Shown here piece by piece: positions 3,160 through 27,372 of a stretch of DNA of 32,716 bases. Source of the stretch: an uncultured Halomicronema sp. (GTDB lineage: Bacteria; Cyanobacteriota; Cyanobacteriia; Phormidesmidales; Phormidesmidaceae). The stretch lies in the NCBI GenBank assembly GCA_937899725.1, contig CALCCA010000111.1:1-32716 (forward strand), in the 5' to 3' direction. Position numbers and translations under genes: made by a program. Below the pieces are notes generated by a model that searched no databases, had not been told where the DNA came from, and was given only the letters and a program-made list of their open reading frames with translations. Every line of letters begins with the position of its first letter. The stretch's first letter is position 1.

Positions 3160-3206
3160 TTGCGGTCGGCGGTGGCAGATGAACCCTCAGACTAAAGCCA
3201 AATATT

Positions 3207-3316: not shown

Positions 3317-3378
3317 GCATATTTAACTGCCCGCTACTTTGTGGACTGCTATGCCGTGCCATCTCCGCCACATTGCGA

Positions 3379-4212
3379 TTACCGATCAATCGGCGCATGG
3401 GGGAGGCGACTCCACTCGTTCCAGGAGCCGTCATAGTTGCGCACATCAGGATAGCCAAGTAAATACGTCAACACAAACCAGGTACAGGCAGAGCGGCCCC
3501 CGATCGCACAGTAAGGAAACACGACTTTGTCAGCCGTCACGCCTTGACGGTTAAAGAGCGCGTGCAACTCATCGGCTGACTTAAAAGTGCCATCGTCATT
3601 AAGCGTGAGCGTATGCTCAAGATGGATTGCACCCGGAATATGCCCCCCTCGTTCGTCCCCTGCGGGCGGCTTCATCATAAAGACATCGCCCTGATATTCC
3701 TCTGGGGTGCGTACGTCTAGCACTACACAGTTGGGTTGTCCCAGAGCGGCCTGCACCTCTGTTTGTCGAGCCCGCAAAGTCATATCTGGGGAGTTTGCCT
3801 GATACTGAGTCGGTGCAAAGCTGGCCAGCTCAGCGGTGAGGGGCCGACCTTCTGCCACCCATTTTTGATAACCGCCATTGAGAACGGACACGTTGTCATG
3901 GCCAAAGAGTTTCAACAGCCAAAATATCCAAGCGCCGGTGCCAGGATAGCCGCCATAGGCAACCACAGTGGTTTCCGGCGAAATGCCCGATCGCGACAAT
4001 AGCTTCGCCATCGCGATGGGGTCGAGATTCACGCTGAGGTTAGGCTTCAGCAGGTCGGTGAAAATATTCCAGAAAATTGCCCCCGGAATGTGAGCCTTTT
4101 GGTAAGGGTCTGGACTCATATCCACTGCTACCACCCGCACCTGTGGATCGTTGAGGTGGGCCAGCAGCCATGGGGTATCGACTAAAACTTCTGGATGAGC
4201 ATATTGAGACAT
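3379..4212 (-). CDS. Two-domain rhodanese (sulfurtransferase)
   Basis: The 277-residue protein has two tandem rhodanese domains (about 8-122 and 145-270), the layout of thiosulfate and 3-mercaptopyruvate sulfurtransferases. The C-terminal domain keeps the catalytic loop cysteine (C235 in YCAIGGRS), with VLDVRTPEEYQG and GGHIPGAIHLE as typical family motifs. The N-terminal domain has YGGYPG at the matching loop, without cysteine, so it is the usual inactive partner. The CAIGGR loop differs from the charged CRxGER-type loop of classic thiosulfate enzymes, so the sulfur donor is uncertain. The gene is convergent with the monooxygenase. Its 5' end and upstream DNA have a decayed copy at 4988-5168. 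Confidence 0.93.
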   Translation of the reverse strand: MSQYAHPEVLVDTPWLLAHLNDPQVRVVAVDMSPDPYQKAHIPGAIFWNIFTDLLKPNLSVNLDPIAMAKLLSRSGISPETTVVAYGGYPGTGAWIFWLLKLFGHDNVSVLNGGYQKWVAEGRPLTAELASFAPTQYQANSPDMTLRARQTEVQAALGQPNCVVLDVRTPEEYQGDVFMMKPPAGDERGGHIPGAIHLEHTLTLNDDGTFKSADELHALFNRQGVTADKVVFPYCAIGGRSACTWFVLTYLLGYPDVRNYDGSWNEWSRLPHAPIDR

Positions 4213-4318
4213 TGGGCATCTCCTGTGATTAGCACTAGGGCCAACATTAGGAAAAGCCTTTGCCGTCGCCTAGTCCCCGATCGAGTACACTTCGCCGGCA
4301 TAGTTATGCCCTGTTCTT
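4141..4318. repeat. Direct duplication, copy A (rhodanese 5' end plus upstream)
   Basis: This stretch covers the first codons of the rhodanese gene and its upstream region. It aligns with 4988-5168, sharing for example CTGTGGATCGTT, GCACTAGGGC and the run CTTTTGCCGTCGCCTAGT with scattered differences. At its right end TTATGCCC...GT.CTT matches the first codons of the LuxR-type gene, so copy A carries a stub of that gene and copy B a stub of the rhodanese. Confidence 0.75.
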
Positions 4319-4426
4319 GAGCGATCGGGGCAGTTGCTTTGTGCTCAATTCAGATAATCTGCCGCTGACATTGGGGTGACCGTTTCGTAACCGGTCTCTT
4401 GTTAATCCACCAGAGGAATGACCAAT

Positions 4427-4825
4427 TCACCGTCGGTTAAGCAGCAGCGCTGACGGTAGCGAGATTAAAATTAGCCAGCCTCCGACAACGCCCGCTACTT
4501 TAGGAACCATTGCTAAAAACGCCGACAAGGTTGAATAGCAAGCAGGTGTTTGCAGAGTACATAAAAGGCTATGAAAGATGAGGCCCGCTAAAAGCGCGAT
4601 GGCGACTCCCAACAGCCATTGTTGGCGTCTGAACAAAATGAATGGCCCGATCGCGACTAAGCCCGCTGGCAGTGATACTACGATCGTGCTTGCAAGGTGA
4701 ATAGACAGAGCATTTTGCAAGCTGCCGATCTCGTGATCGGATGCGACGATAATCCCTGCAGTCAGGATGACAAAAAGGCAGAACCAGCCGATGCCTAAGC
4801 CTTGCCGAATATGAGAAAAGGTCAT
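4427..4825 (-). CDS. Small four-helix membrane protein, unknown function
   Basis: I do not recognise this 132-residue protein. It is mostly hydrophobic, with about four predicted membrane segments near residues 10-30, 42-65, 68-88 and 100-128, and short positively charged loops (FRRQQW, C-terminal NRR). No catalytic or binding motif is visible. GGAG lies about 11 bases before the ATG at 4825. It lies between the two copies of a local duplication (4141-4318 and 4988-5168) and so may have been brought in, or exposed by deletion, during that rearrangement. Both the gene call and membrane location are reasonable; function is open. Confidence 0.65.
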   Translation of the reverse strand: MTFSHIRQGLGIGWFCLFVILTAGIIVASDHEIGSLQNALSIHLASTIVVSLPAGLVAIGPFILFRRQQWLLGVAIALLAGLIFHSLLCTLQTPACYSTLSAFLAMVPKVAGVVGGWLILISLPSALLLNRR

Positions 4826-4987
4826 GTTGGTGACTCCAGTCTTGAAATGTACAATTGCATGGAAATTTTTCTCTTAAGCCAGATCTGTGAAAAAAATAAT
4901 GCTTTGGACTGTCACAGTTTGGCGGTTTGGACGTTTTGTTTAAGTCAGCATAGTGATTAGATGCAGAATAATGTCATTCACCTGTAT

Positions 4988-5168
4988 CTGTGGATCGTTC
5001 AGGTGAGCCATCGGCTACGGGGTTATCGACTACAACTGTTGGATGAGTACATGAGGCCATCAGAGGTCTTTTGTCATGAGCACTAGGGCTAAGATTAGAA
5101 GAAGCTTTTGCCGTCGCCTAGTTCCCGATCAAGTCCACCTTGCGCCAGCGCGATTATGCCCCGTCCTT
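4988..5168. repeat. Direct duplication, copy B with rhodanese remnant
   Basis: Degenerate copy of 4141-4318. Read on the minus strand from the ATG at about 5060, the first codons give MASCTHPTVVVD, clearly related to the rhodanese start MSQYAHPEVLVD. A one-base insertion then shifts the frame and a stop follows after about 28 codons. The right end of the copy runs into the intact LuxR-type gene (ATG at 5156). It is a broken gene fragment and is not expected to make a product. Confidence 0.75.
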
Positions 5169-5929
5169 TGCAGTCTTTGTTTCAAGCCATTCACCAAGCT
5201 ACAGATGAGCAGGCGTTGCGATCGCAGGTTGTTCCGGTAATTGGCGAGCATTTTGAGGCTAAGCGCCGGGGCATTTTTTTCTTCAACTCTTTAGAAGAGA
5301 TGCTCCGCAAACAGCTGCCGCTGGCCGATGCAACGCTCCAAAAAGCCCTGCGTCGAGGCTTCTCAGTCGAACACAATCCAGTGGTGCGTTATCTCGTGGA
5401 GCGCCACGCTCCTGTGCATGAAGCATTGGTGACCTCCCCTAAAGTGTGGACGATGGTTTGTCCGCGCCCTGATCACTGGCATGTGATGGTCGGCCCCATT
5501 GTCAGCCAGGGGCAGTTAATTGGGGTGGTGGGCTGCACTCGTGAGCAGTCAATGCCTGCCTTTGATACTCAAGATTTAGCTGATTTGAGTGCAGTCTGTT
5601 TGCATTTGTCAGCTTGGGCAGCCACCGTGCGCTCACGATTAGTGACTGCTGATGTGGCCTGCCTGAAGGATCAAGGCAAGGGGGCCACTCCATCTTTCAA
5701 AAGCGATGCTCTGCGGCACAGCAAAGTCGAATGCTTGACGCCGCGTGAATTGCAAATCGCTGACCTGGTGGCTTTGGGTAAAACGAATGCCGCGATCGGT
5801 ACTGAACTTTGGATTACTGAAAACTCGGTAAAACAGGCGCTCAAGCGGATGTTTCGTAAGTTAGAAGTCTCGTCTCGGGCGGAAATGGTGGCGCAGTTGG
5901 TCGCAAATAATACTCTTGGCTCAATGTGA
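5156..5929 (+). CDS. GAF-like/LuxR-type transcriptional regulator
   Basis: The protein (257 residues from the ATG at 5156) ends in a LuxR/FixJ-type helix-turn-helix, about residues 190-250, with the family landmarks LTPRELQIADLVALGKTN, the TENSVKQALKRMFRKL recognition segment and SRAEMV. The N-terminal 160 residues look like a GAF-type sensory fold; I see no phosphoacceptor receiver pattern, so ligand or redox sensing is more likely than phosphorylation. An in-frame TTG at 5108 would add 16 residues, but those lie inside duplicated non-coding DNA, so 5156 is preferred. No good Shine-Dalgarno is seen. The gene is divergent from the decayed rhodanese copy, and in the ancestral arrangement was probably divergent from the rhodanese itself, which may be its target. 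Confidence 0.88.
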   Translation: MPRPLQSLFQAIHQATDEQALRSQVVPVIGEHFEAKRRGIFFFNSLEEMLRKQLPLADATLQKALRRGFSVEHNPVVRYLVERHAPVHEALVTSPKVWTMVCPRPDHWHVMVGPIVSQGQLIGVVGCTREQSMPAFDTQDLADLSAVCLHLSAWAATVRSRLVTADVACLKDQGKGATPSFKSDALRHSKVECLTPRELQIADLVALGKTNAAIGTELWITENSVKQALKRMFRKLEVSSRAEMVAQLVANNTLGSM

Positions 5930-6374
5930 AAAAGTGTTTTATTCTGGTGCTTGAATTCCGAGCGGTGAGCCAACGGCAAGGTTGCGTGAAAAGAAAACAT
6001 AGTCAATCAAGAAAATAATAGCGTTAGAGATTATCAATTTCTTGTTTTTAGATGCTCTGTCCACAGCCAGGCCAGCTTAATGCTTTTGTATTACTGCAGG
6101 CGGTGAACAGAGTAGAGTGAAAACTCCGAAACATCATGAATAAGCAATTGGCAGCCAAAAATGATCAACACCGCTGCAGAAAAGTGCTGATTAAAGCTCT
6201 ATCTTAATATATGAGGTGATTTGGATTGATGATCTTGCTCTAATTTTGCTTCATTTTCTAATCTGACCGAATTCAACGGCTTCAGCCATTTCTTTACTGT
6301 ATAAATGTTTCCGATCTGACAAATTCTACTAATAATCTTTGTTCCATCAGAATGCTCTTACATGAAGACGAAAA

Positions 6375-6402
6375 GATACCCATAGTCCGTGGACGAATAG
6401 TC
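6375..6402 (+). promoter_or_regulatory. C-boxes (controller protein operator)
   Basis: Two half-operators, GATACCCATAGTC (6375-6387) and GACGAATAGTC (6392-6402), are joined by CGTGG. This is the known C-box layout of restriction-modification controller proteins (GACT..AGTC repeats around a central CGTG). The pair ends 22 bases before the C gene ATG, the expected place for activation by the left site and repression by the right site. Confidence 0.75.
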
Positions 6403-6409
6403 ATCTGAA

Positions 6410-6416
6410 TATTAAT
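6410..6416 (+). promoter_or_regulatory. -10 element of the C-R promoter (leaderless)
   Basis: TATTAAT at 6410-6416 lies 8 bases after the C-box and 8 bases before the ATG at 6425. Transcription would start at or next to the start codon, giving a leaderless mRNA as is known for other C-protein genes. This fits the lack of a Shine-Dalgarno. Inferred from spacing only. Confidence 0.45.
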
Positions 6417-6424
6417 TTCAGGGC

Positions 6425-6643
6425 ATGACAGAACCGGATCTACTCATTCTCTTAGGTGCAAGAGTTCGGAAGTTGCGAAAAGCTCGTGGTTTATCGCAAG
6501 AGATGTTCGCAGCCGAGTGCGGATTGGATCGTACTTACATCGGCGGTATTGAACGTGGTGAGCGGAATGTTGCTATTCGCAACTTGGTATTGATTGCTAA
6601 AAGCTTAGATATATCCGTGTCAGAGTTGCTATCGGGACTTTGA
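6425..6643 (+). CDS. Restriction-modification controller (C) protein
   Basis: A 72-residue XRE-family helix-turn-helix protein, of the size and pattern of C proteins: [17 protein letters not shown] for helices 1-2, [21 protein letters not shown] for the recognition helix region, and a C-terminal dimerisation helix ending [11 protein letters not shown] proteins bind the C-boxes seen just upstream, first activating then repressing their own promoter. This delays the endonuclease until the methylase has protected the DNA. Its stop codon (6641-6643) overlaps the TTG start of the endonuclease gene, so the two are made from one transcript with coupled translation. Confidence 0.92.
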
Positions 6644-7248
6644 ATATAGTGAAAATAGTTGAAGAGATTAATGTCGTTTGTCATGGAAATGCAGACCGTT
6701 TGGAAACTTGGTACAGAGCTTGTTCTGACGTCGAGCAAGCTATCGCATCAATCGATTGGCCTCATGGTTCTGGGTCTTTTAAGCTTAATCCTGGAACTAC
6801 TAAAAATGCTAATGGTGTTGTGCCAATTAAAATACCTGGAATTGTCAAACTCAGAGAGCTTGGTTGGAAAACGGAAAGTTTACCTAGAGAACTAGCTGGA
6901 GTGAGGATGGGCAATTTAGATGCCGTGCTCGAAACAGAAGAAGGTGTAATTGGTTTTGAATGGGAGACCGGTAACATCTCATCCAGTCATCGTGCAGCAA
7001 ACAAAATCATTCATGCCATGCTCAAAGGTGGCTTGATTGGCGGAATATTAGTAGTGCCTGCTGAGTCTATGCGTCGATATCTTACGGATCGTATTGGCAA
7101 CATAACTGAACTTCGTGCTTATTTTCCAGTATGGTCAGCTGTTAATATTAATGCTGGAGTATTTCGGGTCGTGGCAATAGAATATGATCAATTAGACAGC
7201 AATGTTCCTTTAATCCCAAAAGGTAGAGATGGGATGGCAATGCGCTAG
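6640..7248 (+). CDS. Type II restriction endonuclease, BamHI family
   Basis: About 202 residues, close to BamHI (213). From memory of the BamHI sequence I see matching blocks in the same order: GVVPIK near residue 59; the metal site D94 with F-E107-W-E109-TGNISS (BamHI D94, E111, E113 in FETGNISS); YLTDR at 147-151; and the C-terminal [13 protein letters not shown] near 187-199. All catalytic acidic residues are present, so an active GGATCC-cutting enzyme is expected. The start is TTG at 6640, overlapping the C gene stop; GTG at 6649 is an alternative. It converges on the methylase gene, both stop codons lying within CTAG at 7245-7248. The AT-rich composition suggests transfer. Confidence 0.93.
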
Positions 7249-8141
7249 TTAGCATCATCTATAAAATCTGTATTTAGATGTTGAGATATCTCGCCTCGAG
7301 TCAATCGTTCAATAATGACGTCACAATTTTCGAGTTCAATGCCGATCCAATAACGGTGTCTGGCCTCACAGACAGCAAAGGTAGTGCCAGAGCCGCCGAA
7401 AGGGTCGAGCACGATATCGCCGGGGCGGGTAGAAATTTCGATCACCCGTGAGAGCAGCTTGGTAGAAAGTTGATTGGCCTGACGTTTTTTACTTTTAAAC
7501 TTCCAGTGGCGAACCGGCGGAATATCATTCCAAACATCGGTAAGATTCACGCCTTTGGGATTCATCGCTGAGCGATGACCGCCATAATCTTTGATGTCAC
7601 CGCCACAATGGCGACAGGTTTCTATCGGCGTGCGGATTTTGCGAAAAGTTTTGGGTTTGCTGCCTTTGCTGTAGTAAATCAAGCTGTAGTGAGAGGGGTA
7701 TAGCCGCCCGTTGATCGGCATGCTCATTTTGATATTGACCGCAATCCAATGACGGAATGTTAGACCCCGTTCCAGCAGATAGGGGCCAAGCATAATATTC
7801 CATTTTGGTAAGTTGTAAATGAAGAGTGACCCACCGGGGCGCAGCACTCGCTCACACTCGGCGATCCATGTATGCATCCAGTTGAGGTATTCATTCTCTC
7901 CTAAACTATCGTTGACTTTTTTGCCATAGTGCTTACCGAGATTAAAGGGGGGATCGGCAAACACCGTATCCACACTTTCACTTTCAATATGTTTGAGAAT
8001 TTCTAAGCAGTCGCCCTGAAAAAGTACACCGTGTTCTGTGTTGAGTATAGGTTGAGGGCAACGCTGACGAAGAATAGCTTCCGGCTTCCACTGAGGCGTA
8101 CTGAACTCTAGGACTTGCTGTTGATAAGTGTTTTCAGGCAT
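7245..8141 (-). CDS. DNA methyltransferase, beta class (R-M partner)
   Basis: A 298-residue N6-adenine/N4-cytosine methyltransferase. The catalytic motif IV DPPF (63-66) comes first and the SAM-binding motif I, DPFGGSGTT (246-254), comes last, the beta-class order. The stretch VFADPPFNLGKHYG and the GIELEN segment near the C-terminus are typical. A small CRHC pair (177-180) with nearby histidine may form a zinc knuckle. Paired with a BamHI-type endonuclease, it should protect GGATCC. DPPF rather than SPPY leaves open whether it makes m6A or m4C; BamHI's own methylase makes m4C. The gene is transcribed apart from C-R, so protection can be made before the nuclease. Confidence 0.93.
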   Translation of the reverse strand: MPENTYQQQVLEFSTPQWKPEAILRQRCPQPILNTEHGVLFQGDCLEILKHIESESVDTVFADPPFNLGKHYGKKVNDSLGENEYLNWMHTWIAECERVLRPGGSLFIYNLPKWNIMLGPYLLERGLTFRHWIAVNIKMSMPINGRLYPSHYSLIYYSKGSKPKTFRKIRTPIETCRHCGGDIKDYGGHRSAMNPKGVNLTDVWNDIPPVRHWKFKSKKRQANQLSTKLLSRVIEISTRPGDIVLDPFGGSGTTFAVCEARHRYWIGIELENCDVIIERLTRGEISQHLNTDFIDDAN

Positions 8142-8314
8142 GCGCGAAATTTGTTGGTCGAATTAGTGATGACTATGTGTATCACTCTGGAGTATGGATG
8201 TCAATTGGCACGATTTCCAGCCGGACATTGTGCATTAGCAAATCCTCTTGAATTCCTGCTAGCTAATTTGAGCGTGATCGCACTCAAGCAGAGTTGAGCG
8301 GCATTGTTGTCAAT

Positions 8315-9019
8315 CTAGACTGACCGAGTGATGCCGCCATCGACACGAAGATTTTGCCCCGTAATATAGCTGGCTCCTTCGGAAGCCAAAAACGCTACGA
8401 CAGCCGCGATTTCTTCTGTCTTACCATAACGACCCATCGGGATGCGTTGGAGAAACTGAGGTTTTTCCGGCAGGCTGTCGATAAAGCCGGGCAGGATGTT
8501 GTTCATGCGGATATTTTCTGCGGCATACCGATCTGCAAACAGCTTGGTATAGGCAGCCAGGCCAGCCCGAAAGACGCCAGAAGTTGGAAAGGTTGGGTCG
8601 GGCTCAAAAGCGGCAAAGGTCGAGATGTTGATGATGCTGCCAGATTGCTGCTGCTGCATGATAGGCGCGACTAACCGGGTGGGGCGGACGACGTTGAGAA
8701 AGTAGACCGCCATACCCTGCTGCCAATCGTCGTCTGACAGCTCTAGCAGCTCTCCTTTGGGGCCGTGACCGGCACTGTTGACCAGAACATCAACCCGCCC
8801 CCAGGCGTTCATCGTTTGATCAACGAGTTGCTGCAAATCGTCATTCGATTGATTAGAGCCGGTAACCCCAAGGCCACCGAGTTCGCTGGCCAGGGCCTCT
8901 CCTTTGCCAGATGAAGACAAAATTGCAACACGATACCCTGCTGCAGCTAACTTGCGCGCGGCACCTGCCCCCATGCCGCTGCCACCAGCGGTGATTATGG
9001 CAACTTTTTCATCAACCAT
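8315..9019 (-). CDS. SDR family protein with altered catalytic site
   Basis: The 234-residue protein has a Rossmann fold with the cofactor motif TAGGSGMGAG at 10-19, NSAG at 81-84 (classic NNAG), the active-site serine S133 in NISTF, and the C-terminal PGFIDS and SYITGQNLRVDGG segments. The standard YxxxK pair is absent: where Y and K should fall the sequence reads S147...R151 (TSGVFRAG). It may therefore be a non-classical or non-catalytic SDR, or use other residues. It stands alone between the methylase and the repeat protein; both flanking gaps are short. Substrate is unknown. Confidence 0.88.
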   Translation of the reverse strand: MVDEKVAIITAGGSGMGAGAARKLAAAGYRVAILSSSGKGEALASELGGLGVTGSNQSNDDLQQLVDQTMNAWGRVDVLVNSAGHGPKGELLELSDDDWQQGMAVYFLNVVRPTRLVAPIMQQQQSGSIINISTFAAFEPDPTFPTSGVFRAGLAAYTKLFADRYAAENIRMNNILPGFIDSLPEKPQFLQRIPMGRYGKTEEIAAVVAFLASEGASYITGQNLRVDGGITRSV

Positions 9020-9176
9020 TGACTGAGCCTGTGGTTACCAACGACAGTTTATAGGATGCATGAGCGAGACAGCATAATTCATCAAAGCATGATGGAATCG
9101 TGTTGACGGCTTCGCCTAACGGTACCCTACAGCATTGTTGATGGATAGAAATCTACTTATCAAACCAATAGATATC

Positions 9177-9209
9177 AAAGAGGGAGGCCAACAGTGGGCC
9201 TCCCTCTTT
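9177..9209. terminator. Strong hairpin terminator
   Basis: AAAGAGGGAGGCC (9177-9189) and GGCCTCCCTCTTT (9197-9209) form a perfect 13-bp stem with a 7-base loop. It lies 36 bases past the end of the repeat-protein gene on the minus strand, ends in TTT on both strands, and is the likely terminator of that gene. Confidence 0.85.
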
Positions 9210-9244
9210 AAACAATCCCGCTTCTCTGCCTGGCGCTTTTGGTT

Positions 9245-10744
9245 TTAACTTAAGCTGCGCCCTTCGGCATAGCCAAATATAAAGTAATGCTCGACGCCAC
9301 TTCCTAGTGTGTCTGCCTTGACCGCCGCCGCCACATCGGAGTTAGCCGCTAAGTAAGCACTCTCATCAAAAAGGCTACTGGGCCGACGACCTTCTGACAT
9401 GCCAAAGGTTTGGAAGTGCTCCCAGCCGGATTCAAAGAACCCATTCTCTACTGCTGCCTTGACATCCGCATAGAAGGTCAAATAATCATCTTCTTGGAAC
9501 ACAGAATAGGATAACCGTCCTTCCTGTGCCCCATGGGTAGTGAAATGCTCAAAGGCACTATCAATGGCCCCAGATTGCACCGCTGCCGCCACATCCGGGT
9601 TATTGAGCAGATAGTCTTTGGCATCAAACAAACCGCTGGGGTTACGGTTTTCTTTATGGCCGAACAAAAGGAAATGCTCGATGCCGCTCTGGAAGCCCCC
9701 GTTGGCAACTGCTGCTTTGACGTCAGCATTTTGAGCTAGGTAATATGCCTCGTCAAAGTAGGCAATAGGGCTGCGCCCTTCTGCCATGCCGTGAATGACA
9801 AAATGGTCATACCCTGTGGCAAACTCCCCTGCCGTCACTGCTGCCGTGACATCAGCATTTTGCAATAGATAATAGCTTTCATCAAAGGTGCTACCTAATG
9901 GCAAATCACCGATCTCTAGATTGATGGAGGTTTGGGAAGGGGTGCCTGTGATCTGCAGTGGCAAGTTGAGGCTCAAGACTACGGTGCTGGCCGAGTCGGC
10001 GGGTGTGCTCACTGGTGTTGGAGAGGGGCTGGCAAGGGCAGTTGCGAAGCGTAAAGTGCGAGGAATAATTTCAGTTACAAAGTCAGCACTATTGTTAGAG
10101 CCATTTGCATGGATGCCCTCCCCATAGTCAGTCGCAAAGCCAGCACTGAAAAAGTCAGAGCTCAGGTATACAACTTTCCCGGCACCCGCCTCGATTACTG
10201 CCACAGCTGCATTGCTGTCATCACCGTAGATGGGAGTAAACCCAGCGACTGTTCCATTGGCAATATTCCAACCGGAAAGGGGATCTAACGTTGCGGGGCC
10301 TCCTTCATAAGGCGTCCCCGCAGCGTTATCTATTTTTAAGCTGGTGGGCTCGTAGCTAGAACTATCTGGTCCTTCAGCTAAATCCCAACCAAAAATTCGA
10401 TTTAAGAAGATGGCATCATCAGAACCGTCAGTGCCCGTCATGACCATAATGCCGCCCCCTTCGACATAAGTCTTTAAAGTGTTGACGGCCGACTCGGGTA
10501 AGAAAGCATTATCCGTAGGAGATGCATTCTCCATATCAGTCATGAAGAAGAAAGTGGCATCGTTTAATCGAGTTGCCAGGTCAGGTATCGTAAAAGAGGT
10601 AATGCCCGCTTCGATAGCGTAATTTTCACCGTCATCAATTTGCTTTTGAATAATACTTAGGATATTCGCATTCTCGTCGCTAGAGTCTCCTACGCCGTTG
10701 CCGTTTAGATTGGGTTGATTGAATACTGCGACTTTCGTAACCAT
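9245..10744 (-). CDS. GATase/ThuA-like protein with five 43-residue repeats
   Basis: Residues 1-235 look like a class I glutamine-amidotransferase/ThuA-like fold, with beta strands KVAVFNQ, ATFFFMTD, VEGGGIMVMTG and VVYLSSDFF and a family style of late-residue glycine turns. I see no cysteine nucleophile, so it is probably a non-catalytic version. A Ser/Thr/Pro linker (238-282) follows. Then five repeats start at residues 287, 330, 373, 416 and 459, exactly 43 apart, each of the form FDE..YL..N.DV.AAV..G...SG.EHF..G..EGR. Repeats of this kind occur in cyanobacterial exported or calcium-binding-like proteins. There is no N-terminal signal peptide; type I export is possible but not shown. Single-gene transcript ending at the hairpin 9177-9209. 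Function unknown. Confidence 0.85.
   Translation of the reverse strand: MVTKVAVFNQPNLNGNGVGDSSDENANILSIIQKQIDDGENYAIEAGITSFTIPDLATRLNDATFFFMTDMENASPTDNAFLPESAVNTLKTYVEGGGIMVMTGTDGSDDAIFLNRIFGWDLAEGPDSSSYEPTSLKIDNAAGTPYEGGPATLDPLSGWNIANGTVAGFTPIYGDDSNAAVAVIEAGAGKVVYLSSDFFSAGFATDYGEGIHANGSNNSADFVTEIIPRTLRFATALASPSPTPVSTPADSASTVVLSLNLPLQITGTPSQTSINLEIGDLPLGSTFDESYYLLQNADVTAAVTAGEFATGYDHFVIHGMAEGRSPIAYFDEAYYLAQNADVKAAVANGGFQSGIEHFLLFGHKENRNPSGLFDAKDYLLNNPDVAAAVQSGAIDSAFEHFTTHGAQEGRLSYSVFQEDDYLTFYADVKAAVENGFFESGWEHFQTFGMSEGRRPSSLFDESAYLAANSDVAAAVKADTLGSGVEHYFIFGYAEGRSLS
9248..9886 (-). repeat. Five tandem 129-bp coding repeats
   Basis: The C-terminal repeats of the 499-residue protein are in exact 129-base register (43 codons, no indels). 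The DNA has diverged, but the codons for the DV.AAV and EHF..G..EGR cores recur. The regular spacing shows expansion by in-frame tandem duplication under selection for length. Confidence 0.8.
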
Positions 10745-11217
10745 GACTTTGCCTGATTCCTAAAAACTCAACAACATAAAGACAGAACGCAGGATGATGC
10801 AACCAAGCTGCTCTCATTGCGCCTTTATGAAGCCGTGAACGCTGAACTGAAAGTTCGGCATTCGGCTCACGATTTTAGGATGGACAAGTGATCAATCAAC
10901 AAATCTAAGTGGCTTCTATGAATTTTGGAGTGACTGGGCAGATTAGCTAAATATTTACAGTGGTTCTCAAGTTGACATAGAACACCCTATTGGTCTAGAA
11001 ATCTCACTTAGAAATAGCGGCTCCCAGTGGCGACAACGTTCAGAGTGAAATTATGTGGCGAGCCCAGAGTATGAGGCTATAGACAATGCTCTCAAAACAG
11101 CATACGTAAGGTACTACTAGCGCGGCGATGCCCCTTTCTCCCGAACACCGCGATCACTCCGTAAACCACTAAAGGTTCCCCTCCGGTGCTCACCAGCGGG
11201 ACGCGGAATACCTTTAA
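10745..11217. other. Intergenic stretch with no supported feature
   Basis: About 470 bp between the start of the repeat-protein gene and the decayed antitoxin. It must hold the promoter of the repeat-protein gene (minus strand), but no convincing box stands out. A short inverted pair around CTGAAC..GTTCGG near 10850 is too weak to call. No ORF, RNA gene or mobile-element end is supported. Confidence 0.5.
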
Positions 11218-11445
11218 TCAGCTACTTGATGGCATTGATTCAATCAGCGCTCTCAGCACCCGGTTAACTGCTTCAGGTGTGGTAGATACCTAGGCGACAT
11301 CTTCATCTAAAACGACGACGGTACATTGCTGTGCTCCATCATGAGCTGCAAATCGATTTGGCTTTGCTTTTATATAGTCGAGGCGATATTCATCTAAAAG
11401 CTCATCTGCGGCAGGCGGTGAGTTCTCAGAGGGCAGATTGTTCAT
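11218..11445 (-). pseudogene. BrnA-like antitoxin broken by an amber codon
   Basis: From the ATG at 11445 the minus strand encodes a protein starting MNNLPSENSPP with the family segment DEYRLDYIKAKPNRFA and then VVVLDEDVA, stopping at TAG (11290-11292). The same frame continues past the TAG with VSTTPEAVNRVLRALIESMP and a TGA at 11218-11220. That continuation is the missing C-terminal DNA-binding half of such antitoxins (normally ...LDEDVAKVF.TPEAVN.ALR..). A single AAG to TAG change explains the break; read through, it would be 75 residues. The start overlaps the restored end of the toxin gene by 20 bases, the usual toxin-first order of brnTA. The 51-residue product lacks its operator-binding part. 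Confidence 0.75.
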
Positions 11446-11703
11446 AATCCTCACGTTCCTGACAAGTGGCTAAACGGGCGCTGACGAGCGGATACGGTTT
11501 GATCGTTCACTAAAGGCGACCAGTAATAGTCGATTTTGTTGAGAGTGACCGATGATGATTTCTCGACGTTCTTCAGCAGAATGAGCTTCATCGTCGAAGA
11601 TGACTGCCAGCGGGTTCTCAAACACAGTTCTAGCTTCTTTAAAGCTAACACCGTGCTTCTTTAGGTTGGCGGCCGCTTTTGACAAATCCCACTCAAATCT
11701 CAT
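11426..11703 (-). pseudogene. BrnT-like toxin with a C-terminal frameshift
   Basis: The minus-strand frame from ATG 11703 reads MRFEWDLSKAAANLKKHGVSF, then FENPLAVIFDDEAH, EERREIIIGHSQQNRLLLVAF and SERSNRIRS. This is the BrnT ribonuclease fold and order. It then ends early in SAPV at TAG 11470-11472. In the next frame the expected tail follows directly, SARLATCQEREDYEQSAL, ending at TGA 11426-11428. One base appears to be missing near 11480, inside RIR.xSAR, the conserved C-terminal strand and helix that carry active-site residues. The shifted 77-residue protein probably lacks activity. The ATG overlaps the stop of the upstream PLP-enzyme gene (ATGA), so it is co-transcribed with it. Confidence 0.8.
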
Positions 11704-12950
11704 GTCTCTGCTGATTCGATGCTCAACCGCTGAATTGCCTTGACTGCCGCTTCGATCGCGATCGCGACATGCGTCCAGTGGGTACCGCCTTGGCAATAGA
11801 CTACGTAGGGTTCTCGTAGAGGGCCATCGGCAGAGAGTTCTGACGTGCTGCCGTCGATGAAGGTGCCGCCTGCCATGACCAGCTCGCTGTCATAGCCCGG
11901 CATGCCCGCCGGGATGGGTTCTACATAAGATTCCACCGGCGAATGCTGCTGGATCGCTTTGCAAAAAGCGATTAGCTTTTCGGGGGAGCCCAGTTTGATC
12001 GCTTGAATGACGTCGCGCTGGTGATCGGCTGCTGGGGGATGCACCGCGTAGCCGAGTCGCTCAAAGGTGTGGGCGATCAACGCATTGCCCTTCATGGCTT
12101 CCCCCACCATTTGCGGCGCGAGAAACAAGCCCTGAAACAACAGCCGATTTTGATTGAGGCTGGCCCCGCCGCTGCTGCCGATGCCAGGGGCAGTTAGGCG
12201 ACAGAGGGCCATTTCAACCAGGTCTTCGCGTCCGGCCAGATAACCGCCGGTGGTCGCGATCGTGCCGCCAGGATTTTTGATCAGTGAGCCCGCCATTAAG
12301 TCCACCCCGACGGCGGTCGGTTCGCGATCTTCCACAAATTCGCCGTAGCAATTATCGACAAAGCAAACCGTGTGGGGATTTTGCTGCTTGACCACCTGCA
12401 CAATGCGCTCAATTTCAGCAATGGTCAGGCTGCGCCGCCAGCTATAGCCGCACGATCGCTGGATCAACACCAGCCGGGTTTCGGGCTTTATTGCCTGTTC
12501 TAGGCTCTCCCAGTCAACGGAAGCGTCTATAGTAAGGGGTAGTTCACAATAAGTAACACCAAACTCTTTTAGGGAACCCTGGTGATTACCCCGAAGCCCG
12601 ATCACCTCTTCTAAGGTGTCGTAGGGCGAGCCCGCCACGGCCAACAGTTCGTCACCAGGACGCAAAACGCCAAATAAGGCACACGCGATCGCGTGAGTTC
12701 CTGAAACCAACTGCACTCTGACCGCAGCAGCTTCTGCCTGCATGACATCGGCAAAGACGCGATCCAACGTGGCGCGGCCCAGGTCGTTGTGACCATAGCC
12801 AGACACACTGGCAAAATGGTGACTGCCTACCCGGTGCTTACCCATGGCTGCCAGCACCCGACTCAGATTGGCTTTGACCTGCCGGTCAATCTGCCAAAAG
12901 ATCTGGGAGAGTGCGACCTCAGAGACTTGCATGTTGTCTGGGGAATTCAT
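11700..12950 (-). CDS. Aluminium-resistance / methionine gamma-lyase family PLP enzyme
   Basis: This 416-residue fold-type I PLP protein matches the family annotated as aluminium resistance protein or methionine gamma-lyase family protein, common in cyanobacteria and Firmicutes. Landmarks are SGYGHNDLGRATLDRVFADV near residue 50, VSGTHAIACALFGVLRPGD, the FVDNCYGEF aspartate that binds the pyridine ring, and the Schiff-base lysine region SLIKNPGGTIATTGGY near 225. The ATG at 12950 gives the usual start. Its true substrate is not established; carbon-sulfur lyase activity is inferred from the fold. The stop codon overlaps the start of the broken BrnT gene. Its promoter lies in the 80-bp divergent gap shared with desC. 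Confidence 0.92.
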   Translation of the reverse strand: MNSPDNMQVSEVALSQIFWQIDRQVKANLSRVLAAMGKHRVGSHHFASVSGYGHNDLGRATLDRVFADVMQAEAAAVRVQLVSGTHAIACALFGVLRPGDELLAVAGSPYDTLEEVIGLRGNHQGSLKEFGVTYCELPLTIDASVDWESLEQAIKPETRLVLIQRSCGYSWRRSLTIAEIERIVQVVKQQNPHTVCFVDNCYGEFVEDREPTAVGVDLMAGSLIKNPGGTIATTGGYLAGREDLVEMALCRLTAPGIGSSGGASLNQNRLLFQGLFLAPQMVGEAMKGNALIAHTFERLGYAVHPPAADHQRDVIQAIKLGSPEKLIAFCKAIQQHSPVESYVEPIPAGMPGYDSELVMAGGTFIDGSTSELSADGPLREPYVVYCQGGTHWTHVAIAIEAAVKAIQRLSIESAET

Positions 12951-14000: not shown

Positions 14001-15389
14001 CTAAACGTTTACGCTCTGTGTGCTTCTTACTTGAGCTAAAGACTTCCGATATTCAGCAGCTTCAGCAATTTTTGTGATTTTGATTGCTGAAGTACACGTT
14101 TGTAGCTGCTGATCAATCTCTTCAACAGCTTTAGTGACTTCTTCGAGTGATACTCTGAAAAACTCTTTTCGTGCATTAACACTATTCACACGTTGAGTAT
14201 CAAATGTCTTGTGTAGCCTACGTTCCAACTCAGGGGCATTTGCACAGGAGATCATTGCATGAACATCAAAAGGAAATGGCACAGAAGCGTCTCCCAGTTC
14301 TTTCACTCGCTCTTCTGGCTTCAGTCTTCGAGTCATGCCAATTTTGTAGATGTTCTCACCGAATGAACCTAAGTTTGAAATAATGTAAACATGGCCAGAT
14401 TTAGTTAGCTGTGCTTGTGAGATCGCTCGCGCTTTGTTGTCTTCTGCCTCAGCAACTCTTTTCTGAAGCTCTGCAATCTGTGCTTGAAGTTCTTGCTGGA
14501 GCTTTCCAGTGGCAGTTTCGGCTTCTTTTCTAGCTTTTTCTAATGCGTCTTGATACTGCTTCTCTTCTTTTTCGGCTTCTTTTCTAGCTTTTTCTATTTC
14601 TTTGGCCGCGCGCTCTTCTTCACGCATTTGCTCACGAATTTTTCTTTGCTCTTCTTGTTCCTCCTGCTTTTTCTCTTGATACTCGTGAGTCAATCTCAAT
14701 TCTTCGATTTTTAGAGTTAAGTACTCATACGTGATCTCACAATGTGTCGTCGCAGAAAGCTTATTCAAGGTTTCATATGCTTTTTGTAAACGATTCTCCA
14801 TTGTTTGTATATTGTTATATCTGACTTTGCTGATCGCTGAATCGCATTCCCCATTAAATGCACGAAGAACTAGCTTAAGAAAGCCATTCACCATCTTCTG
14901 ACCTTCGCGTTTGCTGCCTGCAACTGTCCATTCTGTATTGCAAATGGCAGCTGTCTTTTCTTTGATTAGTTGCTTTTGTTTAGTTCGAATGACGTCTAGT
15001 CTTTGTTTGTATTCTGTCGCCTCTTGAAAATCATACTTAGATTCATAGAAGCCGAATTCCTCAACAAAGTCTTTTTCTTCAAGCTCAGATAGTTTTTCGG
15101 CAAGTGTATTGATCTTTAAATTAATTTCCTGTTCTTGTAGACTGGCTTGTGTTTGAAGCTGTTTGAGGCGATCTCGAAGAATGATGATTTTTGTGTCTAA
15201 CTGTTTGATGGCTTCTTCTTTCGAGATCAGTCCACCATACTTTCGATCTGCAGCTCTGAGTTTCTTTTCAGCTTCTTGAGCTAATTGCTGAGTGATCTTG
15301 TTTTCATTTCTACTTTTTTGAAGTTGCTGATAAAGTAATGCTGTTCCTGTAGCGAAAACAATAGATAGAAAAAGCAATAAGAAAGACAT
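14001..15389 (-). CDS. Membrane-anchored DUF4041 / GIY-YIG-like protein
   Basis: Residues 2-20 form one hydrophobic anchor. A coiled coil and a DUF4041-like domain (about 90-235, including EEFGFYESKYDF and GSKREGQKMVNGFLK) follow, then a highly charged coiled coil (about 240-328). A T5orf172/Mug113-type GIY-YIG domain (about 332-425) comes last. Its marks are GHVYII, YKIGMTRR, ERVKELGDAS, the acidic PELERRLHKTF and NARKEFFRV. These are the expected tyrosines, arginine, glutamate and asparagine of the nuclease fold, so DNA cleavage or nicking is plausible. This architecture is common in phages and mobile islands, and its role is not settled. Composition is AT-richer than its neighbours, hinting at transfer. 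No partner gene is evident. Confidence 0.85.
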   Translation of the reverse strand: MSFLLLFLSIVFATGTALLYQQLQKSRNENKITQQLAQEAEKKLRAADRKYGGLISKEEAIKQLDTKIIILRDRLKQLQTQASLQEQEINLKINTLAEKLSELEEKDFVEEFGFYESKYDFQEATEYKQRLDVIRTKQKQLIKEKTAAICNTEWTVAGSKREGQKMVNGFLKLVLRAFNGECDSAISKVRYNNIQTMENRLQKAYETLNKLSATTHCEITYEYLTLKIEELRLTHEYQEKKQEEQEEQRKIREQMREEERAAKEIEKARKEAEKEEKQYQDALEKARKEAETATGKLQQELQAQIAELQKRVAEAEDNKARAISQAQLTKSGHVYIISNLGSFGENIYKIGMTRRLKPEERVKELGDASVPFPFDVHAMISCANAPELERRLHKTFDTQRVNSVNARKEFFRVSLEEVTKAVEEIDQQLQTCTSAIKITKIAEAAEYRKSLAQVRSTQSVNV

Positions 15390-17510: not shown

Positions 17511-17919
17511 GATGGAACATCCTTATGTGAAAGAAATACACAACACACTTAGTTTGCTGATATCTCCTCTGAAGCCTCAATGAGCAGCTGGTAGCTAGCG
17601 CCAGTAAGGCGAAGTGTCTCGTAGCGGATCGAAGTGCCTGGTAGTTTTGAGAACTACATGAATATTCTGCTCATGACGCTTTGCCGTCAGGAAATTGTGT
17701 TCCGTGACGTTTTGATGCCTTTGGCGTAGCGCGCTGGCCTGTAAACGCATCAATTTTAGGAACGTGAGTTCAATGGCCTAAAAGATTGCAGAAGGGAGAG
17801 CAGGCTAGCCTTGAACTTCCAGATTTAAGGCAGGCGGCTGTTCCTGACCGGTGTCAGCCATGGCAGCATTCAGAATGCTGAGGTTGGAATACCCTGTGGG
17901 AAGGGCAAGCCCTACGGAA

Positions 17920-18111
17920 TTAGAAAGTTGGCCAGATGGTGATTTCAGCCAGTTGGGGTGATCGCATCAAACAGCGGCTTGTTATACCAGCGCCTTTTAG
18001 GGTGTTGAGCCGAAAATTGAACACTCCCGCCATCGCAGTCCCTTCAATTTGCATGACGTTTTTCAGCGGAGCATTCACCGTTTCAATCAAGGCACGGTTA
18101 CGCCACATCAT
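17920..18111 (-). mobile_element. Remnant of an IS982-like transposase
   Basis: The minus strand encodes RNRALIETVNAPLKNVMQIE followed by FNFRLNTLKG. This matches the conserved C-terminal part of IS982-family transposases (RKRA.IET.N..LKN..QIEH......NF..N). The rest of the transposase, the catalytic DDE core and any terminal repeats are missing or unrecognisable. It is a dead fragment joined to a hydrolase fragment at about 18112. Confidence 0.55.
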
Positions 18112-26791: not shown

Positions 26792-27136
26792 TTAGGTCAC
26801 CAGGGTCTCTAAGCGACTGATGACTTCTAGCACTAATTCTGGGCTGGCGGGTTCGATGAATTGGGCCTGACGCGCGATACAATCCACCGTCCGGATTTGA
26901 TCGACTAAAACAACGCCGTAGGTTTCCATCGAATCTGGCAATAGCACCTCAAAGGGCCACCCCTGCTGGCGACTGGCGATCGGGCAAACCACCAGTAGCT
27001 TCGAAATGCGATTGTAGACCAGTGGTGAGATCACCAGGGCAGGGCCTGACTTCCCGGCTTCACCATCGGCCTGAGGATCGAACTGTAGTTGAATGATGTC
27101 GCCCCGTTCAGGCGTGCGGTTAGCCAGCGTTACCAA
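26792..27136 (-). CDS. MazF/PemK-family toxin (mRNA endonuclease)
   Basis: The protein has the MazF/PemK fold: an N-terminal ERGDIIQLQFDPQ strand-loop, GPALVISPLVYN (R/K-P-A-x-V-ISP motif), LLVVCPIASRQQGWPFEVLLP, and the C-terminal GVVLVDQIRTVDCIAR with the catalytic-site arginine. MazF toxins cut mRNA at short sequences. The start is taken at TTG 27136, giving 114 residues, because GGGGAGGA lies just upstream; the ATG at 27169 would overlap the antitoxin by 40 bases and lacks such a site. The TTG overlaps the antitoxin stop region, giving coupled translation with antitoxin first. Confidence 0.88.
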   Translation of the reverse strand: MVTLANRTPERGDIIQLQFDPQADGEAGKSGPALVISPLVYNRISKLLVVCPIASRQQGWPFEVLLPDSMETYGVVLVDQIRTVDCIARQAQFIEPASPELVLEVISRLETLVT

Positions 27137-27372
27137 TGTTCCTCCCCGATAGCTGGGCCCCAATGCCACTCATCAGCCTGCGAGGTGGGGCCAGCCGCTT
27201 TAAACAACTCATCCAGCGTATATTTTGGGTGCGCCGGTGCCAAGACGATGTTATGGCCTTCGACACAGATCGAAATGATCGCGCCTTCTTCTAACCCCAC
27301 CTGCTGGGCAATGTCAGGGGGCAAATGGACTCCTAGGGCGGTGCCCCACAAACTCACCTTTTGCGTAATCAT
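27130..27372 (-). CDS. MazE/AbrB-type antitoxin
   Basis: An 80-residue protein. The N-terminal swapped-hairpin domain (1-45) follows the AbrB/MazE pattern: VSLWGTALGVHLPPDIAQQVGLEEG and then ISICVEGHNIVLAP. The rest (50-80, TLDELFKAAGP...EWHWGPAIG) is the disordered, toxin-wrapping tail with the usual W/G/D-rich end. It lies upstream of and overlaps the toxin gene, the standard order. It should neutralise the toxin and, with it, repress the shared promoter upstream of 27372. Confidence 0.9.
   Translation of the reverse strand: MITQKVSLWGTALGVHLPPDIAQQVGLEEGAIISICVEGHNIVLAPAHPKYTLDELFKAAGPTSQADEWHWGPAIGEEHW

Follow-up and report, generated by a model that had tools for sequence, protein, structure and literature searches.

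A BamHI-family restriction-modification system in convergent layout in an uncultured Halomicronema, and its methylase at the same locus of a sister genome

What is the compact gene cluster on a contig from an uncultured Halomicronema sp., and for how long has the host lineage carried it? The stretch analysed here (contig CALCCA010000111.1, 32,716 nt, hereafter the window) had been described, in a first-pass annotation made from the letters alone, as carrying a complete BamHI-family restriction-modification system with its own controller, acquired recently. The profile, structure and locus comparisons of the endonuclease, the controller and its operator give good support to the first part of this description. 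The cluster is an ordinary, complete BamHI-family system in convergent layout: a C-R-M type II unit with the controller gene (C) and the endonuclease gene (R) on the plus strand, a methylase gene (M) facing them on the minus strand, and all three frames open. The recent date does not stand. The features are as follows.

6371..8205, no strand: full span of the unit, aligned at 75% by blastn with the nearest relative, L026; no other part of the window aligns with it
6382..6394, plus strand: C-box core ATAGTCCGTGGAC before C; exact match, and conserved upstream of C in other loci
6425..6643, plus strand: C, controller protein of 72 aa, HTH_3; Pfam and PDB matches
6649..7248, plus strand: R, endonuclease of the BamHI family, 199 aa when started at GTG 6649 (202 aa from TTG 6640); Pfam, PDB and start-codon comparison
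7245..7248, no strand: CTAG shared by the stop codons of R and M; sequence and stop-codon comparison
7245..8141, minus strand: M, beta-type amino-methylase of 298 aa, motif IV DPPF; Pfam, motif order and PADLOC; intact at the same locus in the sister genome G002
5932..7242, no strand: segment holding C, R and the spacer upstream of them; G002 lacks it and has 12 bp instead; alignment with G002 contig C399

In the reading that we regard as very probable, R would cut unmodified GGATCC, and M would methylate the same site, most likely at the inner cytosine (m4C), and thereby protect the host. C would bind the C-boxes that precede its gene and turn on the C-R operon late, leaving M active first on entry into a new cell, comparable to the convergent AhdI-type systems. 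Horizontal acquisition would predate the split between the window's own genome (G000) and G002, a genome of the same genus, which would subsequently have lost C and R while retaining M.

The controller and the endonuclease

The controller gene is borne out by its matches to Pfam HTH_3 (E 8.5e-17) and, in the PDB, to C.AhdI as the nearest entry (E 1.2e-16), with C.BclI also matched (1.6e-10). Upstream of it, the C-box core at 6382-6394 is matched without mismatches and is the sole match when up to two mismatches are allowed. This evidence alone is modest, since chance would give 0.32 matches and at least one turned up in 24 of 100 shuffles. The comparison across loci makes the call firm and confirms the C-boxes that had been annotated here: of the 18 loci in which a C gene was recognised, the window among them, 15 carry the core ATAGTCYG upstream of C, as against three occurrences elsewhere in the same loci (234 kb, both strands). 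It is missing upstream of C in L008, L012 and L026, the latter two carrying near variants. The core fits the C.PvuII-like operator type as described in PMC4824078. With a small HTH protein encoded before R and a C-box upstream, C is a putative activator and the system would be under C-protein control.

R, present in a single copy in the genome, matches PF02923 (BamHI) over profile positions 1-157 of 157, scoring 144.2 bits where the cut-off is 22.8 (E 3.8e-42), which settles its proposed family membership at the profile level. The PDB search returned OkrAI (1.4e-44) and BamHI (1.5e-24) and no other match at E up to 1, PADLOC assigned R to REase_II (E 1.4e-53), and no NCBIfam model matched at E 0.001. 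OkrAI, the closest solved relative, is described as a BamHI isoschizomer (PMC9416302). Its alignment, a comparison of the endonuclease only, spans query residues 28-202 and leaves the first 27 residues of R unaligned (202-aa numbering).

The R frame, open to its stop at 7246-7248, had been read from TTG 6640, which makes C and R overlap by TTGA. The start-codon comparison favours GTG 6649: among the 31 of 40 relatives that align from residue 4 or earlier (the nine aligning later were omitted), codon 4 of the frame is a start codon in all 31 (20 ATG, 9 GTG and 2 TTG), and codon 1, the position of TTG 6640, in none. R thus most likely begins at GTG 6649, which lies 5 nt past the stop codon of C and leaves no TTGA overlap. 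The catalytic residues D94, E107 and E109, which are where they had been placed given the TTG start, accordingly become D91, E104 and E106. In the PDB-match alignment these pair with BamHI D94, E111 and E113, which we take to be its catalytic residues, whereas N109, S111, R115, D147, R148 and D194 pair with N116, S118, R122, D154, R155 and D196, presumably the base-reading residues of BamHI. The equivalents of both sets are therefore all present in R. Across ten aligned members, chosen among 41 sequences, there is no variation at D91, E104, E106, N109, S111, R115, R148 or D194, and almost none at D147 (E in L014). Given these residues, GGATCC is the expected target of R.

Layout and relatives

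We compared 40 relatives of R, comprising 29 loci in genome contigs, eight in the phylum sample and three of the four plasmid matches. M is convergent and downstream of R in 24 of them, from several phyla (in L028 by a weak match only), and divergent and upstream, as in BamHI, in 14; M was not found beside R in the remaining two. On the R tree the layouts require two changes, as against a mean of 11.8 for shuffled labels (0 of 500 as low). The R and M frames of the window end inside a common CTAG, just as the first-pass annotation had stated, and close spacing is the rule: the two stops lie -41 to +24 nt apart in 24 of the 25 convergent loci, window included, and overlap by exactly 4 nt in seven, the lone exception being L015 (1384 nt). 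The further suggestion that this layout keeps the nuclease and methylase transcripts apart is unsupported, because the stops are so close in nearly all convergent loci and no terminator-like site separates those of the window. The sole terminator-like site within 5900-8400 sits inside C, so the R and M transcripts may overlap.

The system resembles that of BamHI itself (Bacillus amyloliquefaciens H) in the R family, in the catalytic and reading residues and in the combination of a C protein with C-boxes and a paired amino-methylase; however, the BamHI genes are described as divergent (PMC5333194), whereas M of the window faces C-R. In this respect the unit is closer to the convergent C-protein systems AhdI and Csp231I, in which a C-R operon faces M (as described in PMC5333194 and PMC4824078), and C.AhdI is also the nearest structural match of C. 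Those two systems differ from it in the families of their R and M proteins, and in the window the R and M stops overlap.

The nearest relative, L026, comes from a cyanobacterial MAG (Oscillatoriales). Its methylase frame (L026:4115-5002, minus strand) contains one in-frame stop next to an open R frame, which could be a sequencing error or the sign of a decaying system. R is present in nine of the 386 genomes of the phylum sample, the window's genome included, and M, at E up to 1e-60, in 11, among them all nine R carriers. The two genomes with M and without R are G286 (66-69% identity) and the more distant G338 (44%). For G286, no C or R match was found in the 3.8 kb covered (L136); G191, which carries the same genus label, has both R and M.

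Relatives of M also occur on Acetobacter and Klebsiella plasmids, and the R search of plasmids gave no match on those records. When four neighbouring proteins on the two Acetobacter plasmids were searched in Pfam, three had no match and one was a second methylase. One of these plasmids carries (L043:2583-4801) a methylase sharing 66% identity with M; beside it are a type I-F CRISPR cluster and another methylase, which has an Mrr_N domain. Relatives of M were found in 65 phage records as well, 64 of them below 60% identity and one in the 60-80% band; the R search of phage records returned no match.

The methylase and the base that it marks

The assignment of M to the beta class holds: it matches Pfam N6_N4_Mtase (E 1.4e-44) and PADLOC MTase_II (E 1.7e-112), and DPPF precedes DPFGGSGT, which is the beta order. 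DPPF is found in an open methylase frame beside R in 36 of the 40 relatives, the exceptions being L026 (where DPPF is present and the frame interrupted), L028, L033 and L042. As to the base modified, the motif and the nearest families of M point to m6A, whereas its pairing with a BamHI-like R points to m4C.

The same system could operate with M marking the adenine of GGATCC and R being blocked by that mark. Such a reading is quite unlikely, although the NCBIfam models nearest to M are adenine-specific (with scores far under their cut-offs), its best PDB match is the m6A enzyme MboIIA, and most m4C enzymes are described as carrying SPPY rather than DPPF (PMC8885841); a literature search for DPPF combined with N4-cytosine methylation found nothing. 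Against it stands the plasmid locus L041, divergent in layout, in which an R that matches BamHI at E 7.9e-99 lies beside a DPPF methylase 56% identical to M, albeit of 414 aa compared to 298 aa in the window. M.BamHI is reported to produce GGAT(m4C)C (PMC3646050), and for a GGATCC methylase from Oceanispirochaeta the listed modification is m4C (PMC7380536). Because of the L041 methylase and the product of M.BamHI, m4C is the better prediction for M. The host moreover encodes one MethyltransfD12 enzyme, and such enzymes in cyanobacteria mark GATC; if this one does so, m6A within GGATCC would be made by it too and would be useless for telling self from foreign. Also weighing against m6A, BamHI is not known to be blocked by Dam methylation.

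Age of the system and the sister genome

The case for recent acquisition had been built on AT-richer DNA and missing HIP1 octamers. The unit is indeed AT-richer, with a GC content of 0.46 in C, 0.42 in R and 0.47 in M compared to 0.53 in one flank and 0.54 in the other. HIP1 is absent from it as well, but this is too weak a sign to mark foreign DNA and was rejected as such: at 1.22 per kb (294-kb sample) about 2.2 copies are expected in 1.77 kb, with P(0) of about 0.11, and the HIP1-free stretch, 5226-11757, extends through neighbouring genes. Elsewhere in the window there are an AT-rich gene (14001-15389, GC 0.40) with DUF4041, MUG113 and T5orf172 domains, a BrnT-type ribonuclease toxin domain (11470-11796, E 2.3e-20) in a frame that overlaps the 3' end of ORF 11700-12950, and a PemK/MazF-like toxin gene adjoining a MazE-like antitoxin gene (26792-27372).

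The sister genome speaks against a recent arrival. Contig C399 of G002 matches window positions 3361-5931 at 94% and 7243-9047 at 89%, and the 1311 bp between these matches, which include C and R, are represented by 12 bp. At this same locus the M gene of G002 is open from end to end and 90% identical over 298 residues, and a PF02923 search of G002 (90% complete, 1050 contigs) gave no match. Searches of 39 relatives, a set that includes the genome of the window itself, found R in that genome only, and M, at E up to 1e-40, in it and G002 only. Because M occupies the same locus in both genomes, recent acquisition is rejected, and the system is older in the host lineage than first thought; a horizontal origin at some earlier time is nevertheless likely, since the GC content differs and the relatives are spread over many phyla. 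Between G000 and G002, M has a dS of 0.30 and dN/dS of 0.18, compared to 0.13-0.22 and 0.07-0.15 for three neighbour genes (L026 was left out of the codon comparisons on account of the stop in its M frame). With a dS above that of its neighbours, M may have been replaced later by a related M. Repeats flanking the segment missing from G002, sought within 5850-8330, amounted to short imperfect pairs. A separate stretch, window 17863-17981, is 72% similar to C399:616-733, which lies in G002 between the equivalents of window positions 3181 and 3361, and is perhaps a dispersed intergenic repeat.

The use of GGATCC bears on how long R may have acted. The site occurs 44 times per Mb in G000 and 41 in G002, compared to 90, 98, 103 and 121 in G001, G005, G004 and G003, respectively (sizes of G001-G005 rounded). 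With a Markov expectation from samples, the observed/expected ratio for whole genomes is 0.62 in G000 and 0.74 in G002 (0.91-1.87 in the others); counting in the samples alone gives 0.72 (15 observed versus 20.9 expected) and 0.74 (0.97-1.21 in the others). The expected counts are rough for G004, sampled over 50 kb, and for G002, whose sample comprises 17 out of 21 contigs, including three that have almost the same length and may be near-copies. In G000, GTCGAC (0.28) and GAGCTC (0.35) are more strongly depleted, and the control CCTAGG stands at 1.05 there and at 0.48 in G002, so that the value of G002 is no evidence by itself. Given the mild depletion, the rough expectation and the close kinship of the two genomes, we count this as one observation, lending weak support to long exposure to R.

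This mild depletion, together with the non-ATG start codon of R, would also suit a BamHI-like system that does not function in restriction in this host, R being silent or inactive. We consider that unlikely, given that the C, R and M frames are all open and that the catalytic and reading positions of R and the C-box are retained. The presence in G002 of M without C and R could, in turn, reflect an ancestral locus with M alone, beside which G000 later gained C and R. This order of events is very improbable, since C-R facing M with near-touching stops is the layout of almost all convergent relatives and L026 aligns with the window over C, R and M as a single block. The same spacing makes the joined C-R/M state look ancestral and favours loss in G002, the history adopted above.

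As one more member of the BamHI family, the system adds little, but here the family appears in a convergent arrangement like that of AhdI, and not in the divergent one of BamHI. If the m4C prediction holds, the DPPF motif of M cautions against inferring m6A solely from motif IV. More tentatively, G000 and G002 might constitute a natural before-and-after pair, in which C and R were cleanly lost and the intact, orphan GGATCC methylase was kept by selection, whether for epigenetic regulation or for protection from the nuclease of the sister; G286 may have undergone the same independently. A sister pair with and without the nuclease at the same locus is useful for following the fate of a methylase once its nuclease is gone.
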